Below, piece after piece: positions 14,365 through 38,337 of a DNA stretch of 38,928 nucleotides. The notes below the pieces were generated by a model. The model did no database searches. It was not told the origin of the DNA and saw only the letters and a list, made by a program, of their open reading frames with translations. Numbering within the stretch: the stretch's first letter is position 1; each line of letters starts with the position of its first letter. The position numbers and the translations under genes are program-made. Source of the stretch: Omnitrophica bacterium RIFCSPHIGHO2_02_FULL_46_20 (GTDB lineage Bacteria > Omnitrophota > Gorgyraeia > 2-01-FULL-45-10); NCBI GenBank assembly GCA_001804065.1, contig MHFG01000040.1:1-38928 (forward strand), given 5' to 3'.

Positions 14365-14393
14365 AACTTACCACACGTCATCAACTTTGTCAA
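14365..14393 (-). promoter_or_regulatory. Promoter of the gatCAB operon
   Basis: The minus strand has a consensus TTGACA (14388-14393), a 17-base spacer and TAAGTT (14365-14370), followed by an AT-rich start region. Predicted start is about 14358. The position rules out the upstream ATG of the gatC frame. Confidence 0.5.
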
Positions 14394-14435
14394 ATCATCG
14401 CTTAGCCCCCGCAGCATTTCTACGATCAGGCGTTT

Positions 14436-14836
14436 ACTTTTGTGGCTGGCCACAAAAGTTCCGCCAAATCAATATACAAAAGACTCACTCGCGTCACCCG
14501 TAAAATCTTGCACCAGGTACAGAATTACGATGCAACCTGTCCCTAAATTAAGCTTCAACCTGTCCCCATGGAAAATTCGAGGGGTGACACTGCTATAGCC
14601 TTTTGGTGAATGGGCGAGAGGGGACTATCGGCTAAAAGACTTGCTACCTATGATCTATGGACAAGCTACTAAAGCTAAAATTGGATGAACACTGCCACCC
14701 TCGAGCCCTAAAAACAAAAGGCTGTAGCAGTGGCAGGACCCCTCGAATTTTCAATGGCCCTTCGGCACCTATGCTTTGCTCGGTGCCGATGGTGAGCATA
14801 GTCGAACCATCGGCAGGCTTGAGAGCCCGTGAAATC
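14436..14836. repeat. Repeat-filled intergenic gap between gatC and ksgA
   Basis: No gene is visible in 14394-14836. It holds a 24-base palindrome (14436-14459, ACTTTTGTGGC arms), two direct copies of AACCTGTCCC (about 14533 and 14556), and a large inverted repeat with arms of about 40 bases (14566-14605 and 14715-14757, core GAAAATTCGAGGGGT). Hairpins CGGCACC/GGTGCCG and CCGATGGT/ACCATCGG follow near 14764-14812. GCGTCACCCGTAAAA (14491-14505) recurs inverted at 18575-18589. These look like dispersed non-coding repeats; the hairpins just past ksgA could also end its transcript. Confidence 0.65.
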
Positions 14837-15676
14837 TTAACTCAATTCGTTTGAAATTTTTGCGAAGGATTGGAGCGGCATATCCTCGGGGCGGGAGTGA
14901 GGATCGACGCCTGCCTTACTAAAAATATCGGCCAATTCCTTCTTCGTAACGGCTAAAACTTCTTTACGCGACAAAGAATTGATGATGGATTTGCGCTTCT
15001 GATTAAAAGAGCCCCTTATTATTTTAAAAAACAACTCTTCGTTCTTAACGCTGACCGAAGGCTTGTCGAGAATGACGAGTCTCACCAAGCTCGAATCGAC
15101 TTCCGGCGCGGGATAAAATGAGCCGCGTTTTATCGTATAGATATAGCGCGGCTTCGTATAATACTGGACAAAACAACTGATAGAGCCGCGATCTTTCAAA
15201 CCCGGCTGCGCAAGGAGCCGATCCGCGACCTCTCTTTGCATCACGATTAGAATCGAATCTATTAAATGCCCATTCTTGATTAAATATTCTATTATCGGCG
15301 TTGTAATATAATAAGGAAGGAGGCCTATGACCTTTATCCTTTTCTTTCCCGATATTATTTTTAGATCGAATTCCAGGATATCATCGTTAAAAAGTTTTAG
15401 GTTTGGATAATCATCCCTAATCAGCTCTTTAAGGATCGAGAAGGCCTTTTTGTCTTTCTCTACGGCAAAAACCTTCGCGCCGGACGAAGCAAGGTCTATT
15501 GTAAGCGCGCCGAAACCCGGGCCGATCTCCAGAACCGTATCGCCTTTTCCTATATAGGCCTCGCTGATAATCTTATCCTTGATATTCCCGTCTATGAGAT
15601 AATTTTCGCCGAGCCTCTTCAGGGGTGAGAAGTTATAAATTGAGAACAGCTCTTTTAGCTGGTTTTGTGTAAGCAT
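14837..15676 (-). CDS. ksgA: 16S rRNA dimethyladenosine transferase (KsgA/RsmA)
   Basis: KsgA dimethylates two adjacent adenosines in 16S rRNA helix 45 during 30S assembly. The 279-aa protein has family length, with SPLKRLGENYLIDG, the SAM motif VLEIGPGFGALT, AVEKDKKAF, the acidic NDDILEFD and the PAPEVDSSLVRL/SFNQKRKSI C-terminal region. The catalytic motif normally reads NLPY; here it is LLPY (residues 119-122, codon CTC at 15320-15322), so the Asn that contacts the target N6 is Leu119. It is the last gene of its operon, two bases after pdxA. Confidence 0.93.
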   Translation of the reverse strand: MLTQNQLKELFSIYNFSPLKRLGENYLIDGNIKDKIISEAYIGKGDTVLEIGPGFGALTIDLASSGAKVFAVEKDKKAFSILKELIRDDYPNLKLFNDDILEFDLKIISGKKRIKVIGLLPYYITTPIIEYLIKNGHLIDSILIVMQREVADRLLAQPGLKDRGSISCFVQYYTKPRYIYTIKRGSFYPAPEVDSSLVRLVILDKPSVSVKNEELFFKIIRGSFNQKRKSIINSLSRKEVLAVTKKELADIFSKAGVDPHSRPEDMPLQSFAKISNELS

Positions 15677-15677
15677 A

Positions 15678-16631
15678 TTAATTTTCAGAAAGCCGGCATG
15701 CTAATAGGATGGCCTCTTTCATTGAGGCGGGATCGGCGATACCCTTTCCCGCAATATCGAAGGCTGTGCCGTGGTCAGGAGAAGTCCTTATGAATGGCAG
15801 GCCCAAAGTCAGATTCACTCCGTCTCTAAAATACAGCGTCTTGAACGGCGCAAGCCCCTGGTCATGATACATCGCGATAACAGCGTCAAACTTACCTCTA
15901 ATCGCCTCGTAGAATATCGCATCCGGCGAAATCGGGCCGTAAATGTTCTTTATATCCCCGAGAGACAATTTTATCCCCGGTATTATTACCTTTGCCTCTT
16001 CATCACCGAACAATCCGTTGTCTCCCGCATGAGGATTTAAGCCTGCTACGCCTATCTTGGGATCCTTGATCTTGAAATATTTTCTTAAATAGCCCGCGGC
16101 AAGCATTATCGTTTTGTGGACGGAGTCTGTCGAGATAGAACGCGAAACATCCTTTAGCGCGACGTGGCGTGTAACAAGCGCGACCTTCAGCCTCTTTCCG
16201 ACGAACATCATGGCAAATTCCTTCGTATCCGTCTTAGCCGCAAGATATTCTGTGTGGCCCTTAAAATCATTGAACCCTGCGCTGCGGACAGAGGTTTTAT
16301 TGATAGGGGCCGTGACAAGCGCGTCCGCTTCTCCCTTCTTTAGCATTGTAACGGCTCTATCGATATATTCTACCGCTGCTCTTCCGAAAGAAGGTTGATG
16401 TTGGCCATAAGAAAAATTATTTTGCGGAACGTTGGACAAATCTAAAAGAGACAGCTCCGGCTTTGTCCCTAAATCTTTTTTGCTCTTTTCTATTATGAAA
16501 CGGTCTCCTATAACCGTAATATTGGCGAGGCGCGAAAATATTTTATCGGAAAGCGCTTTAACTATAACCTCCGGACCAATGCCGGAGGGGTCTCCCATGG
16601 TAATTATGACGCGAGGCTTATTTGAATTCAA
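15678..16631 (-). CDS. pdxA: 4-hydroxythreonine-4-phosphate dehydrogenase PdxA
   Basis: PdxA oxidises 4-phosphohydroxy-L-threonine in the DXP-dependent pyridoxal phosphate pathway. The 317-aa product has PRVIITMGDPSGIGPEVIVKA, the metal-binding histidines in FKGHTEYLA, VTRHVALKDVS and MYHDQGLAPFK, and the substrate motif GLNPHAGDNGLFG. The start is a TTG at 16631 that overlaps the upstream chaperone gene by 14 bases; no ATG leaves the conserved N-terminal strand intact. PdxA next to SurA-like and KsgA genes matches the surA-pdxA-ksgA order known from proteobacteria. Confidence 0.95.
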   Translation of the reverse strand: MNSNKPRVIITMGDPSGIGPEVIVKALSDKIFSRLANITVIGDRFIIEKSKKDLGTKPELSLLDLSNVPQNNFSYGQHQPSFGRAAVEYIDRAVTMLKKGEADALVTAPINKTSVRSAGFNDFKGHTEYLAAKTDTKEFAMMFVGKRLKVALVTRHVALKDVSRSISTDSVHKTIMLAAGYLRKYFKIKDPKIGVAGLNPHAGDNGLFGDEEAKVIIPGIKLSLGDIKNIYGPISPDAIFYEAIRGKFDAVIAMYHDQGLAPFKTLYFRDGVNLTLGLPFIRTSPDHGTAFDIAGKGIADPASMKEAILLACRLSEN

Positions 16632-17592
16632 TGTAGGCGCTTTTGGCGAGAGAAGATATCCAGCCCTTTAATTTCTCGTTTGCCTTTTCTCTATACAGAT
16701 ATTCTTCTATTTCCTGGCGCACTTCGGAAAATTCTTTACTCCTCGGCGCCCTCTTTTCTTCCACTTTGAATATATGGTACCCGAGCTGTGATTGTATAAT
16801 ACCGCTTGTCTGTCCTTCTTTCAGATTATATACTATGCCCTCTATCTGCGGGAGAAGGTCGCCTTTTTTTACATAGCCCATTAATCCGCCTTCGCCGGCC
16901 CAGGGGCCGTCAGAGTATTCTTTCGCAAGGCCTTCAAAGTCACAGCCCTCTTTAAGCCTCTTTAATATATCTCGCGTAAGTTCGAGCGATTTCACGCTCC
17001 CGCCTTCTTGTTCATTCTTTGGTTTTATCAATATAGCCCTTAATTTAATCTCTTCCGGCTGCAAGAATTCGTCCTTATGCGCATTATAAAAATTCTTTAC
17101 TTCTAACGGGGTGATGATGATCTTGGCGCCTACCTTCTGGTCTATGAGCTTACGAATGATTATCTTTTCTTTGTAGCGCTCGGACAGCTCCTTCAGCGTG
17201 AGGTTCTGCTCATTAAGCATATTCTCAAGATCTCCTTCGGAGCCCATCTTCTTTTTTAATTCATTTATTTTAGCGTCGACCTCTTTTTGCTCGACGGCTA
17301 TATTTTGTTTCTTCGCCTCGCTTAAGATGAGCCTGTCCTCTATAAGCTGCTTCAATATCAGCTCCCGCGCCTCTTCAAGCCTTCGTATGAGCTCCTCGCC
17401 TTTGTACGTTGTCCTGTACTGCCCGTAGATTGGCGACAGTATAACGTCTATTTCGCGCTGCGTTATAATTTCATTGTTGACGACGACTACAATCTTGTCT
17501 ACGACCTCGGCATCAGTTGCCTTCGCTATACACGCAAAAAGCGCGCAAAATAAAATTATTAAAAATAAAAACTTCTTCATAAATCCATTCAT
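16618..17592 (-). CDS. SurA-like periplasmic peptidyl-prolyl isomerase
   Basis: The 324-aa exported protein has a signal peptide (KKFLFLIILFCALFACIAKA) and an N-terminal chaperone domain starting DKIVVVVNNEIITQREID, with helices through residue 170. One parvulin domain follows (about 175-275; LRAILIKPK, LAKEYSDGPWAGEGGLMGYVKKGDLLPQI, SQLGYHIFKVEE). SurA assists outer-membrane protein folding; this one has one rotamase domain rather than two. The first ATG (17592) overlaps the previous gene by four bases; an internal ATG at 17580 would give a more typical signal peptide, and the choice is open. Confidence 0.9.
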   Translation of the reverse strand: MNGFMKKFLFLIILFCALFACIAKATDAEVVDKIVVVVNNEIITQREIDVILSPIYGQYRTTYKGEELIRRLEEARELILKQLIEDRLILSEAKKQNIAVEQKEVDAKINELKKKMGSEGDLENMLNEQNLTLKELSERYKEKIIIRKLIDQKVGAKIIITPLEVKNFYNAHKDEFLQPEEIKLRAILIKPKNEQEGGSVKSLELTRDILKRLKEGCDFEGLAKEYSDGPWAGEGGLMGYVKKGDLLPQIEGIVYNLKEGQTSGIIQSQLGYHIFKVEEKRAPRSKEFSEVRQEIEEYLYREKANEKLKGWISSLAKSAYIEFK

Positions 17593-18461
17593 TCCTTGAA
17601 TTTCTTTTTTGCGTCTATCGCCCCAAGGGTCTTCATGGCATCATCCTCCACCCTGACGCGATATTTATGCTTGAGGTCTAAAACCAGCTTTTCGAAAAGT
17701 TCATTTCTTTTCTTTAGTTTTAGCTCATTTTCCATCATAGGCCTTGCCTCTTCAAACGATTCCACTGCCTCGCTCTTCTTGTCAGTCAATCTTATTATAT
17801 GATATCCGAATTGTGTGTGGACGATCGAGCTGGTCTCGCCTATTTTCAAATTGAAACATGTATTTTCAAATTCCGGTATGACCTGCCCTTTTCTAAAATA
17901 TCCGACATCGCCGCCCCGGCTGGCAGTGGCATCAATCGATTTCTCTTTAGCGAGCTCTCCGAAATCATTACCCTTGGAAAGCTCAATTAAAATATTCTCG
18001 GCCTCGCCCTCGCTTGCAACCAATATATGGGAAGCGCGCCACATCTCGGGCTTCTTAAAATTATCCTTATGCTCCTCATAAAGCTTTTTTATGCTCTCTT
18101 CGGAGATCTTGACCTTGTCGTCGACCTCCGTCTTTACATATTTCGCTATTATTATTTTCTTCCTCGCCTCTTCCAGTATCTCCCGTATTTCTTTGTCCCG
18201 GTCTATACTCTTTCTAATGGCGTCTTCAAGAAACAGCGACTCCACTATCATGTCGTCGAGGAGTATTTTCTTGTTATTGTCCGCCATCCCCTGATAATAG
18301 GAGGGCAGCCGTGAGAGCTTATGCTTGAATTCGTTGAGTGTTATGAATTTATTGGCTACGGCGGCAAGTATCTTATCCTGCGAAAAGGGCTTGGCACCGC
18401 AACCCTGTAAACTTAGCGAAGAAACCGCCATGAGTAATATAATATATCTTAATCTATGCAT
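17589..18461 (-). CDS. Parvulin-type peptidyl-prolyl isomerase lipoprotein
   Basis: The 290-aa protein starts with a lipoprotein signal ending in the lipobox LQGC (SSLSLQGCGAK), so it is probably membrane-anchored at Cys21. A SurA_N-like helical region (NKFITLNEFKHKLSRL...) precedes a parvulin domain (about residues 140-235; RASHILVASEGEAE, LAKEKSIDATASRGGDVGYF, TQFGYHIIRLTDKK). It resembles PrsA/PpiC foldases. Together with the next gene it forms a tandem pair of envelope foldases. The predicted -10 ends only 12 bases before the ATG, so the mRNA is almost leaderless. Confidence 0.9.
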   Translation of the reverse strand: MHRLRYIILLMAVSSLSLQGCGAKPFSQDKILAAVANKFITLNEFKHKLSRLPSYYQGMADNNKKILLDDMIVESLFLEDAIRKSIDRDKEIREILEEARKKIIIAKYVKTEVDDKVKISEESIKKLYEEHKDNFKKPEMWRASHILVASEGEAENILIELSKGNDFGELAKEKSIDATASRGGDVGYFRKGQVIPEFENTCFNLKIGETSSIVHTQFGYHIIRLTDKKSEAVESFEEARPMMENELKLKKRNELFEKLVLDLKHKYRVRVEDDAMKTLGAIDAKKKFKE

Positions 18462-29871: not shown

Positions 29872-31542
29872 TTATTTAATCTTCCTCTTCTTAACCGTCT
29901 TCGGCCATTCTTCCTGAGTCAGGTCATAGTTAGGGACATATGATTTACTTGCAAGCGGAACGTCTGATAATTCCGTTCCCTTCCTCATAAGTCTTACGGT
30001 AACGAAGAATATGAGCTCGGTCTTCCGTTTTGTTTTTTCTTTCTTGCTAAATAATAATCCTACGCCCGGCACATCTCCGAGCAAGTCTCCTATAAAAGGC
30101 ATGGGCTTTTTAACATCGATAATATTTTCCTTTATGAGCCCGCCGATAAATATCGTGTCGCCGTCTTTTATCATGACCTTCGTATTGGCCTGCCTTGAAG
30201 AAAAGACAGGCGCTACAATGCCGTTTGCCGGATCGATCATGTCGTATCTGACAAGATCGCTTATTTCCGGGGCAAGCTCTATGACTATCTCTTCTTTCTC
30301 GTTTATGTGGGGCGTTACCTTTAATTTTATTCCAAGGTTCTTCGCCTCATAGCCGGTTATCTCAATCTTTCCTGTCGCAGAGTTCCTTTCGTATTTAGGC
30401 ATATTAAATGTTTGCCCTACGAGCATATTAGCCTCCGTATTATTCAGCGTGGCTATGCGCGGATTTGAAACGATGTTCGTATCAGACCTCTGTTTTAACA
30501 TTTCCAAAATAGCGCTGAATTGCGAAAAATCGAGCGTTCCGAATTTAAATGTATCTTTAAACATATCCTGGGCAAAGTCAACGAAAGGAAAGCCTTTGGC
30601 GTAATTAGTAGCGGCAGGAGATGTGGGATAACCCGCTGGCGTCGTTGTTGTTGTAGTATCAGTGCCGGCCACAGGAGTAGTCGCTACACTGCCTGTCTGA
30701 ACCAGGGGCGTATACTGGTCTAGAAACCTCATTCCTGTCCCACCAAAATAGTTGAACGGGAAAGTAATCGGCCTTTTCGCGCCGCTTATCTCAAACTTTA
30801 GGTTCCAGTCTATGCCGAGTTTTTCATCATCGCCTAAGGTGGTTTCCAAGATGCGCGCTTCTATTAAAACCTGACTGGTCTCCTTATCGAGTTTTTCTAT
30901 GATCTGCCCTATCTTGTATACGCTCGTAGGGATATCCGTGACGATGACCATGTTGGTCCTGTCGTCGTATTTGATCTTACCTCTGCCGCTTACAATCTTC
31001 TTTATGGAAGCGACGACATCTTTTGCTTTTCCATAATTTAGGCTGAACGTCTGAGTAACGACCTCTTCCTGTTGTAGCTTATCCAATGTGACTACGCGGA
31101 TTATATCGCCTTCTCTCTCGTATGCAAAGCCATGGTTTCTGACTATTATGTCGAGCGCCGCTTTCCACGGCTTATCCGTTAGCTTCAGATCAATAGCCCC
31201 TTTAACGTCGGGAGCGGCTACTATATCTACGCCCGCCACTTCTGAAATATAAGCCAGCACTACCCTAATGTCCGCGCCTCTAAAATTCATTGTAACATTA
31301 CCCGGCGTGAGATCAGCTGTCTCTTCCGCTTCTTTCTGCTGCTCCGGAGAAGCAGCGCCCGTTTCTTCGGGTTTTTGCGCCGGAGCGGATTGCCCTACTT
31401 GCTGTATCTCGGTTTTAGCAGATTGCTCTTGGACATTTTCAGATGGAGCAACGGACGCCCCTTTTTCCTCCTCCGAAAAAGTGTTTAGAGATAATGCTGT
31501 CAATGCTATAACTATGGACAATATTTTATATTCAAGTCTCAT
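29872..31542 (-). CDS. pilQ: Type IV pilus secretin (second tandem copy)
   Basis: A 556-aa exported secretin that would form the outer-membrane pore for the pilus. It has a signal peptide, a low-complexity Glu/Ala/Gln linker to about residue 75, an STN-like domain (GNVTMNFRGADIRVVLAYIS), a secretin N1 domain (VVTQTFSLNYGKAKDVV, VIVTDIPTSVYKIGQII) and the pore domain (VLIEARILE, SNPRIATLNN, VTPHINEKEEIVIELAPEI, SRQANTKVMIKDGDTIFIGGL). A Thr-rich insert near residues 285-310 differs from the sister gene. No AMIN domains are present. It ends in KTVKKRKIK, like the preceding copy, and most aligned core residues are identical. Confidence 0.93.
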   Translation of the reverse strand: MRLEYKILSIVIALTALSLNTFSEEEKGASVAPSENVQEQSAKTEIQQVGQSAPAQKPEETGAASPEQQKEAEETADLTPGNVTMNFRGADIRVVLAYISEVAGVDIVAAPDVKGAIDLKLTDKPWKAALDIIVRNHGFAYEREGDIIRVVTLDKLQQEEVVTQTFSLNYGKAKDVVASIKKIVSGRGKIKYDDRTNMVIVTDIPTSVYKIGQIIEKLDKETSQVLIEARILETTLGDDEKLGIDWNLKFEISGAKRPITFPFNYFGGTGMRFLDQYTPLVQTGSVATTPVAGTDTTTTTTPAGYPTSPAATNYAKGFPFVDFAQDMFKDTFKFGTLDFSQFSAILEMLKQRSDTNIVSNPRIATLNNTEANMLVGQTFNMPKYERNSATGKIEITGYEAKNLGIKLKVTPHINEKEEIVIELAPEISDLVRYDMIDPANGIVAPVFSSRQANTKVMIKDGDTIFIGGLIKENIIDVKKPMPFIGDLLGDVPGVGLLFSKKEKTKRKTELIFFVTVRLMRKGTELSDVPLASKSYVPNYDLTQEEWPKTVKKRKIK

Positions 31543-31578: not shown

Positions 31579-33234
31579 CTATTTAATCTTCCGCTTCTTA
31601 ACGGTATCCTTCCATAATTCCTGACTTAACTTATAGTTAGGTTTATATGCCTTACTTGCGACAGGGATATCTTTCAACTCTCTATCTCTCTTCATAAGTT
31701 TAACGGTTATGAAGAATATCAACTCTGTCTTCTCTCTCGTCTTCTCTTTTTTTGTAACCAATAACCCGACATACGGTAGATCGCCGAGCAAATCTCCGAC
31801 AAATGGAAGCTTTTTCCTGCTCTCAACTATATCCTCTCTTATTAATCCGCCTATAAATATGGTATCGCCGTCTTTTATCATGATCTTTGTATTGGCTTGA
31901 CGAGATGAAAATATGGGCGCTACTACTCCGCTGGCAGCGTCAAGCGTATCGTATCTTAAGAAATCGCTTATCTCAGGCGCCAATTCAACCACTATTTCAT
32001 CTTTCTCGTTTATATGCGGCGTCACTTTCAATTTTATACCAAGATCCTTTGCCTCATAGCCGGATATCGACATCTTCCCCGTGGTAGAGTTTCTTTCGTA
32101 CTTAGGGAGGTTTATAGTCTGCCCAACCATGATATTCGCCGGATTATTATTTAGCGTGGCTATGCGCGGATTAGAAACGACGCTGGTATCGGATCTCGAC
32201 TTTATCATCTCTAAGACTGCTTTAAACTGCGAAAAGTCAAGCGTTCCAAATGTAAAAGTGGACTTAAATATATCTTGAGCAAAATCGACATAGGGGAAGG
32301 CCTTGCTTCCGTCAGCGCCCGCAGGATATCCTCCGGCAGTTGTAGAGCCTGTAGCGCCGCCAGATGTTGTAGTAGTAGTGTTTGCCCCTGTTTGCACTAA
32401 GGGATAATAGTTTTTAAGAGTCTGACTATCTGCCTTGAAATAATTAAACGGCGCCGTTATAGGCCTCTTCGCCCCGCTCGCCGCAATCTTTACGTTCCAG
32501 TCTATCCCGATCTTTTCTTTGTCACCCAAAACAGTCTCCAAAATCCTTGCCTCGATAAGGACCTGGTCAGTCTCCCTGTCCAGCCTTTCTATGATCTGCC
32601 CTACCTTATACGCGTTTGTCGGGATATCAGTTACTATAACCGTATTTGTCCTGTCGTCGAACATCACGCTGCCTCTTTCTCCGACATTGTCTTCTATCAC
32701 ACTTGCTATCTCTTTCGCTTTTCCATAGTTAATGGGGAAAGTCTGCGTTATGACCTCTTCCTGTTTCAGCTTATCCAATGTGACTACGCGGATTATATCG
32801 CCTTCTCTCTCATATGCAAAACCATAGTTTCTGACTATTATGTCGAGCGCCACTTTCCATGGCTTATCCGTTAGCTTCAGATCGATCGCGCCTTTAACGT
32901 CGGGAGAGGCTACAACGTCGATACCGGCTACTTCGGAGATATAGGCTAGGACGGTCCTGATATCCGCGTCTTTAAAGTTTACGGTTACATTGCCGGGTTT
33001 AGCCGCTTCTTCTGGAATGGCTTCAGGCTCTTTATCAGCTTCCGTTGCCTCCAATAGGCTTGCCGGAGCGTTCTCTTCCGTTTCTTTAGCCGGCGCTGGT
33101 GTCGGAACCTGTGTTTGGGCCTCGATAGGCTCAGGCGCAGCCTTTTCTTCCGCAGATAAAGCATTTACAGGCACCATTACGAAAAAAAGAAATAAAATCA
33201 ATAGTCTATAGAGAAGGGCTTTTTTATTCACCAA
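31579..33234 (-). CDS. pilQ: Type IV pilus secretin (first tandem copy)
   Basis: A 551-aa secretin with the same architecture as its downstream sister: signal peptide (LLILFLFFVMVPVNALSA), a Pro/Glu/Ala-rich linker, STN-like domain (GNVTVNFKDADIRTVLAYIS), N1 domain and secretin pore (VLIEARILE, SNPRIATLNN, DGDTIFIGGLI, LPFVGDLLGDLPYVGLL). The start overlaps pilP by 11 bases, the normal pilP-pilQ arrangement, so this is probably the ancestral copy. A Gly/Thr-rich loop lies near residues 280-300. Both copies are intact, so they may form mixed or alternative pores. Confidence 0.93.
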   Translation of the reverse strand: MVNKKALLYRLLILFLFFVMVPVNALSAEEKAAPEPIEAQTQVPTPAPAKETEENAPASLLEATEADKEPEAIPEEAAKPGNVTVNFKDADIRTVLAYISEVAGIDVVASPDVKGAIDLKLTDKPWKVALDIIVRNYGFAYEREGDIIRVVTLDKLKQEEVITQTFPINYGKAKEIASVIEDNVGERGSVMFDDRTNTVIVTDIPTNAYKVGQIIERLDRETDQVLIEARILETVLGDKEKIGIDWNVKIAASGAKRPITAPFNYFKADSQTLKNYYPLVQTGANTTTTTSGGATGSTTAGGYPAGADGSKAFPYVDFAQDIFKSTFTFGTLDFSQFKAVLEMIKSRSDTSVVSNPRIATLNNNPANIMVGQTINLPKYERNSTTGKMSISGYEAKDLGIKLKVTPHINEKDEIVVELAPEISDFLRYDTLDAASGVVAPIFSSRQANTKIMIKDGDTIFIGGLIREDIVESRKKLPFVGDLLGDLPYVGLLVTKKEKTREKTELIFFITVKLMKRDRELKDIPVASKAYKPNYKLSQELWKDTVKKRKIK

Positions 33235-36970: not shown

Positions 36971-38337
36971 TGACTCACATTAAATGTTACCGAACGTAGA
37001 TCCGGAATGCTTCGTTGACTCATAATTGATGTTACCGAATAATATAGCCCTCTAAGGGGGGTTATATCATGAGTCCCGAGGCAAGAATGGAATGCGTTGA
37101 GTCTATTTATCTACGCTATAAAAGAGCGTCTCGTAAAGAGAAGTCGCTGATACTGGATGAATTCTGCGCCACTTGCGGCTATCATCGTAAACACGCTATA
37201 CGGGTATTAAAGAACTTTAAGCGATTTACCAAGCCGAAGCCAAAGAGACGCGGAGCGCCATCAATATATAATAAGCCGTCTATCACAGAGCCACTTAAGC
37301 GTATATGGCTTGCCGCGAATCTGCCCTGCTCCAAACGGCTAAAGGTTATAATAGGCTTATGGATGCCGGGCTATGTCAAAGAATACGGTGCGTTAACGCT
37401 TGATGCCATAAAAGCTCTTTACAGAATATCGCCGCCTACCATCGATAGAATACTTAAGCCGCTGAGAGCTAAATATAGATTGAGAGGCCGGTGCACGACA
37501 AAGCCCGGAACTTTACTCCGTAAACAGATACCGATCAAGACCGATCAATGGAACGAATCCAAGCCAGGATTCGTGGAAGCCGATACTGTCGCCCACTGCG
37601 GAGATAAGATTGAGGGCGACTACGCGAATACTGTAGACCTCGTCGATATAGCCACGGGGTGGACCGAGCAAGGAGCGGCTTGGGGCAAGGGCGAGACCGG
37701 CGTATTGGCCGCTCTTAAAGACATGGAGTCGCGTATTCCCTTCCCCGTTCTTGGCTTTGACGCCGATAACGGAGGCGAGTTCATCAATCATCATCTTTGG
37801 CGCCACTTCGCCGACAGGGTTAAACCTGTCCAGTTTACACGCTCTCGTCCTTACCACAAGGACGATAATGCCCATGTCGAGCAGAAGAACTGGACTCATG
37901 TCAGGCAGTGGTTCGGATACCACAGGCTCGATAAGAAAAGGATTGTCGATATGATGAATGAGCTATATCGAAGCGAGTGGAGGCTCTATCACAACTTCTT
38001 CCAGCCTTCTACGAAACTCATCGAGAAGAAAGTTATTGCCTCAAAGACAGTCAAGCGATATGATAAGCCAAAGACGCCTTACGAGAGGGTATTAGAATCG
38101 AAGCACATCGATCCATCCGTTAAGCGGTCTCTCAAAGAACAGCTTGAAACGTTAAATCCCTTCCAATTACGGAAGGCTATTGAGGCCAAGATGAAGAAAA
38201 TATTCGACTATCTGAACCGATGAATTATCCACAGTATCAAAGTTATTCACAAAGAGAAAGAGTCGTCCAAAAAGAGAAAATTACTACTACTAAGAGTCAA
38301 CTAAGCTACGGTAACATTTAGCTATGAGTCATTAGGC
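36971..38337 (+). mobile_element. Insertion sequence within the pilus locus
   Basis: A single transposase gene is bracketed by inverted ends: TGACTCACATTAAATGTTACCG at the left (36971-36992) and the complement of TGACTCATAGCTAAATGTTACCG at the right (38309-38331). The left end holds a second, directly repeated copy (37016-37037, TGACTCATAATTGATGTTACCG). The outer right border extends at least to CATTAGG, because the solo copy at 23302-23344 shares it. No target duplication is evident. It separates pilC from the pilin gene. Confidence 0.8.
37069..38223 (+). CDS. DDE transposase with integrase core domain
   Basis: The 384-aa protein has an N-terminal helix-turn-helix region (residues about 20-55, LDEFCATCGYHRKHAIRVL), a second helical DNA-binding part and an rve-type catalytic core. 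The DDE triad is Asp172 (VEADTVAH), Asp233 (FDADNGGEFIN) and Glu271 (HVEQKNW), the last two 38 residues apart as in retroviral-type integrases. A basic C-terminal tail follows. The frame is intact, so it is probably active or recently active. AAGGGGGG lies eight bases before the ATG. I cannot assign the IS family with certainty. Confidence 0.92.
   Translation: MSPEARMECVESIYLRYKRASRKEKSLILDEFCATCGYHRKHAIRVLKNFKRFTKPKPKRRGAPSIYNKPSITEPLKRIWLAANLPCSKRLKVIIGLWMPGYVKEYGALTLDAIKALYRISPPTIDRILKPLRAKYRLRGRCTTKPGTLLRKQIPIKTDQWNESKPGFVEADTVAHCGDKIEGDYANTVDLVDIATGWTEQGAAWGKGETGVLAALKDMESRIPFPVLGFDADNGGEFINHHLWRHFADRVKPVQFTRSRPYHKDDNAHVEQKNWTHVRQWFGYHRLDKKRIVDMMNELYRSEWRLYHNFFQPSTKLIEKKVIASKTVKRYDKPKTPYERVLESKHIDPSVKRSLKEQLETLNPFQLRKAIEAKMKKIFDYLNR

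Follow-up and report, generated by a model that had tools for sequence, protein, structure and literature searches.

The window, that is, the whole stretch of 38,928 nucleotides of Omnitrophota DNA that was analyzed, contains a ksgA gene in a run of genes on the minus strand, as follows.

14837 to 15676, minus strand: ksgA (rsmA), encoding 279 amino acids and matching TIGR00755 and PF00398
15678 to 16631, minus strand: a gene upstream of ksgA that we take, from its translation, to be pdxA; the adjacency is kept in relatives
16618 to 17592 and 17589 to 18461, minus strand: two adjacent genes upstream of pdxA, presumably encoding SurA-like peptidyl-prolyl isomerases, as judged from their translations; the order is kept in relatives

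The order surA-like, surA-like, pdxA, ksgA, gatC, gatA was retained, up to the contig ends, in most of the family to which the window belongs (family f1), and E. coli also has the order surA-pdxA-ksgA. The approximately 460 bases between gatC and ksgA (14375 to 14836) contained no conserved gene, and the gap is far shorter in several relatives; self-complementary stretches were observed within this gap near 14760 to 14815. Elsewhere in the window, two adjoining and similar secretin-like genes (29872 to 31542 and 31579 to 33234, minus strand) are apparently a tandem duplication, and a transposase/integrase-like gene located on the strand opposite to most of its neighbors (37069 to 38223, plus strand) is probably a mobile element.

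The 279-amino-acid product was identified as KsgA/RsmA by its score of 217.9 bits against TIGR00755 (cut-off, 171), and it also matched PF00398. A broad Erm model gave 144 bits, below its cut-off of 212, and an Erm identity was rejected. An AlphaFold model, built from the window protein and 27 relatives, was confident along the entire length (mean pLDDT, 94.5) and exhibited an N-terminal Rossmann domain and a C-terminal helical domain, the top Foldseek match being B. subtilis KsgA with SAM (6ift; TM, 0.92; rmsd, 1.9). The named genomes nearest to that of the window belong to Candidatus Omnitrophota. A match search of the whole genome (a 1.31-Mb draft in 92 contigs) detected one copy of ksgA; a compensating second KsgA or Erm copy was, therefore, rejected.

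The active-site features of this protein were located at the following positions.

15599 to 15610, minus strand: motif X, GENY, residues 23 to 26 (Glu24 and Tyr26), which is GQNF elsewhere
15509 to 15529, minus strand: motif I, EIGPGFG, residues 50 to 56, SAM binding, intact
15458 to 15460, minus strand: Glu73 of motif II, SAM ribose ligand, intact (role from TFB1M Glu85; PMC6698656)
15380 to 15382, minus strand: Asp99 of motif III, SAM adenine ligand, intact (role from TFB1M Asp111; PMC6698656)
15311 to 15325, minus strand: motif IV, GLLPY, residues 118 to 122, codons GGC CTC CTT CCT TAT
15320 to 15322, minus strand: codon CTC, Leu119, replacing the Asn present in 170 of 193 aligned loci

A preliminary description of this DNA had reported GLLPY in place of GNLPY, and the codons from 15325 to 15311 do read G118, L119, L120, P121 and Y122. 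Its further statement that everything else was intact held for the SAM motif, as well as for Pro121, Tyr122 and Phe187 in the alignment, but not for motif X, whose GENY is found throughout family f1.

In order to follow motif IV among relatives, as the preliminary description had suggested, a class-wide sample of 193 KsgA loci was aligned, some of these being repeat entries for the same genome and about 25 coming from outside the Omnitrophota. The position was occupied by Asn in 170 loci, by Ala in 19 and by Leu, Cys, Thr and Met in one each. Within family f1, 22 of the 24 genomes with ksgA had Asn, the exceptions being the window (Leu) and a genome of a different genus, G016 (Cys). The two f16 members both had Ala, which was also seen in f51 and accounted for 16 of the 20 f10 genomes that could be read; the others in f10 had Thr (one), Met (one) and Asn (two). 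On a maximum-likelihood tree built without motifs IV and X, a minimum of eight changes among states was required, and a minimum of six between Asn and non-Asn, these counts being approximate as the tree was quick and had many weak forks. The window and G016 were not sisters on this tree, and so the changes to Leu and Cys look independent; the sequences suggest that Leu, Cys and Ala are independent replacements, with Thr and Met derived within the Ala clade. The Asn-bearing f10 loci (L200 from G065 and L209 from G220) nested in the clade of Ala, Thr or Met, a placement that looks like regain of Asn or gene exchange. Almost every other conserved active-site residue was retained in the KsgA proteins lacking Asn. 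Two further observations were made on this sample. Locus L177 (G129, family f43) has the motif IV sequence GNISYH, in which Asn is kept and Ser takes the place of the NLPY Pro. No ksgA match was detected in G019, a 93% complete draft of family f1, although ksgA is present in two other genomes of its genus; this absence could be a real loss or a draft gap.

Decay of the gene was examined using 35 columns that are kept in 90% or more of the KsgA proteins with Asn. The window protein deviated at two of these, the motif IV Asn and R227K. Its end branch was 0.19 (f1 median, 0.24), and it ranked 9 of 24 in distance from the f1 ancestor. As branch length, conserved columns and gene order were all normal or kept, a decaying gene was rejected. 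A 16S rRNA was not found in the genome of the window by covariance model or 3′-end pattern. The helix-45 loop read GGAA in six genomes whose KsgA lacks Asn (G154, G266, G190, G178 and G037, with Ala, and G031, with Thr), as it does in Asn-bearing relatives, and GGAA was also present in two f1 genomes.

In rRNA adenine dimethylases, a catalytic role is often assigned to the motif IV Asn, and the preliminary description had it contacting the target amino group. Published structures describe contacts of this Asn with SAM. In ErmC′, the Asn101 side chain hydrogen-bonds the SAM carboxylate, a bond predicted to be missing in ErmE, which has Ala at this position and is an active dimethylase of A2058 (PMC6787224); the ErmE sequence in PDB 6nvm reads GAIPYGIT in our alignment. 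In the complex of human TFB1M with h45 and SAM, Asn141 touches SAM mainly via its main chain and also contributes to the pocket that receives the target adenosine (PMC6698656). An amino-group contact is better suited to the D/NPPY monomethylases, in which the Asp or Asn is catalytic and RlmJ D164A is inactive (PMC3814359), and may have been carried over from these enzymes. Ready tolerance of a change at this site is argued against by human DIMT1, in which replacement of NLPY by AAAA abolishes activity (PMC8463865), although this mutant has lost the Pro and the stacking Tyr as well as Asn. A paper describing the N132A mutant of P. horikoshii Dim1 (PDB 8x4l) was not found. The published dimethylase consensus for motif IV is (A/S/N)(L/I/V)P(Y/F) (PMC6787224, PMC3814359); LLPY misses at the first residue and fits at the other three. 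This consensus is no strict membership rule, as Leu, Cys, Thr and Met, all of them outside it, occur in clear members of the family. Leu119 may, nevertheless, reduce activity, given that Leu is outside the consensus.

Because this position has been repeatedly and stably replaced in relatives, the enzyme is probably working rather than broken. The reading that we favor, with moderate confidence, is that the window encodes a single-copy KsgA that still dimethylates helix 45 of 16S rRNA. The motif IV Asn would then not be strictly required in the KsgA family; the reaction would be carried by the backbone of motif IV together with Tyr122, which stacks, and the residues that bind SAM, while the Asn side chain would chiefly pack the pocket and supply one hydrogen bond to SAM, at its carboxylate. 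Leu119 would forfeit the carboxylate contact and perhaps some efficiency. We observed the substitution, its recurrence, the kept residues, a normal rate of change, the kept gene order and an intact target in relatives that likewise lack Asn, and from these we infer retained activity.

On the aligned sequences, the change in motif X stands out as an anomaly more strongly than Leu119 does, and Asn-keeping relatives have it too. Glu24 and Tyr26 were present in all 24 f1 KsgA proteins (e.g., loci L002 to L021), whereas Gln24 was present in 159 of 159 other aligned KsgA proteins, including that of a genome from the same order (G023); the GQNF that forms motif X in KsgA and Erm is replaced by GENY in the window protein. 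The f1 changes Q24E and F26Y correspond to ErmS Q65E and F67Y. In ErmS, activity was wholly lost with Q65E, Q65N, Q65R or Q65H, and about three quarters (about 75%) of activity was lost with F67Y (PMC7998614). In TFB1M, the residue equivalent to Gln24 is Gln35, which forms a bond with the target adenosine at its ribose hydroxyl (PMC6698656); Glu24 could still be able to accept such a bond. Either KsgA, unlike ErmS, tolerates the change from Gln to Glu, or all of family f1 has altered catalysis.

Assembly-only function and altered methylation retain some probability mainly because motif X is changed and Leu is outside the consensus. The preliminary description had proposed either a poor methylase acting mainly as an assembly factor or compensation by another residue. 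It was right that the lost Asn is real and unusual; poor activity is countered by the Ala of ErmE, by the recurrent and stable replacement and by the other residues kept. An inactive or very weak KsgA, retained mainly as a 30S assembly factor, is unlikely in our judgment. Such a role would fit the retention of Asn in most KsgA proteins, the presence here of the same Glu that is dead in ErmS (PMC7998614) and reports that KsgA acts in assembly beyond methylation, the latter being dispensable in several organisms (PMC7897474). However, the SAM-binding and adenine-stacking residues, needless for an assembly-only protein, are all kept; overexpressed catalytically dead KsgA harms E. coli (PMC3534330); catalytically dead KsgA remains 30S bound in H. 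volcanii (PMC7897474); and the Ala-bearing families are old and stable, with Asn apparently regained within one. The reading of an inactive assembly factor was, hence, weakly supported. A family-wide version, in which the f1 active site was remodelled by ancestral changes of Gln to Glu and Phe to Tyr, followed by loss of Asn on at least two occasions (to Leu and to Cys), with helix-45 dimethylation altered or absent and KsgA kept for 30S assembly, seems distinctly unlikely.

An active KsgA with an altered product, e.g., one that monomethylates or modifies one of the two adenosines, arises as a reading because the window protein is altered at two contacts, that with the SAM carboxylate and that of motif X with the target ribose. 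Natural incomplete methylation of helix 45, e.g., in H. volcanii, provides a precedent, but Leu120 is the normal residue at the position following the Asn site that separates mono- from dimethylases (PMC3814359), and we regard such a product as very doubtful. An assembly or sequencing error at 15320 to 15322 is extremely improbable, even in a 92-contig draft that is the one genome available for its species, as two bases separate CTC from AAC, such that a single sequencing error is insufficient and two adjacent wrong bases with the frame intact are needed, and as this residue varies across many independent genomes.

These results caution that one motif letter is no ground for calling a KsgA dead. 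The natural Leu, Cys, Ala, Thr and Met proteins, together with the Glu24 family, are ready variants for testing which residues are required.

In comparison with known systems, the window protein shares with KsgA/RsmA (TIGR00755; e.g., 6ift) the family-level score, the fold, motifs I, II and III, most of motif IV, the single copy and the gene neighborhood seen in relatives. It differs in motif IV, with Leu instead of Asn, and in motif X, where Gln is changed to Glu and Phe to Tyr. ErmE (PDB 6nvm) likewise lacks the motif IV Asn (GAIPY) and is a proven dimethylase; it differs in having Ala rather than Leu, a different RNA target and a motif X that keeps GQNF. The f10 KsgA proteins (e.g., L185 to L208) likewise lack Asn in nearly all sampled genera, with the other catalytic residues mostly kept and the GGAA target kept where readable, but none of them has Leu, the residue being Ala, Thr or Met, and they keep the Gln of motif X. 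The mtTFB/TFB2M transcription factors are relatives of KsgA in which the active site has been lost or changed; they have lost many pocket residues (PMC6698656 among the sources), whereas the window KsgA keeps them.
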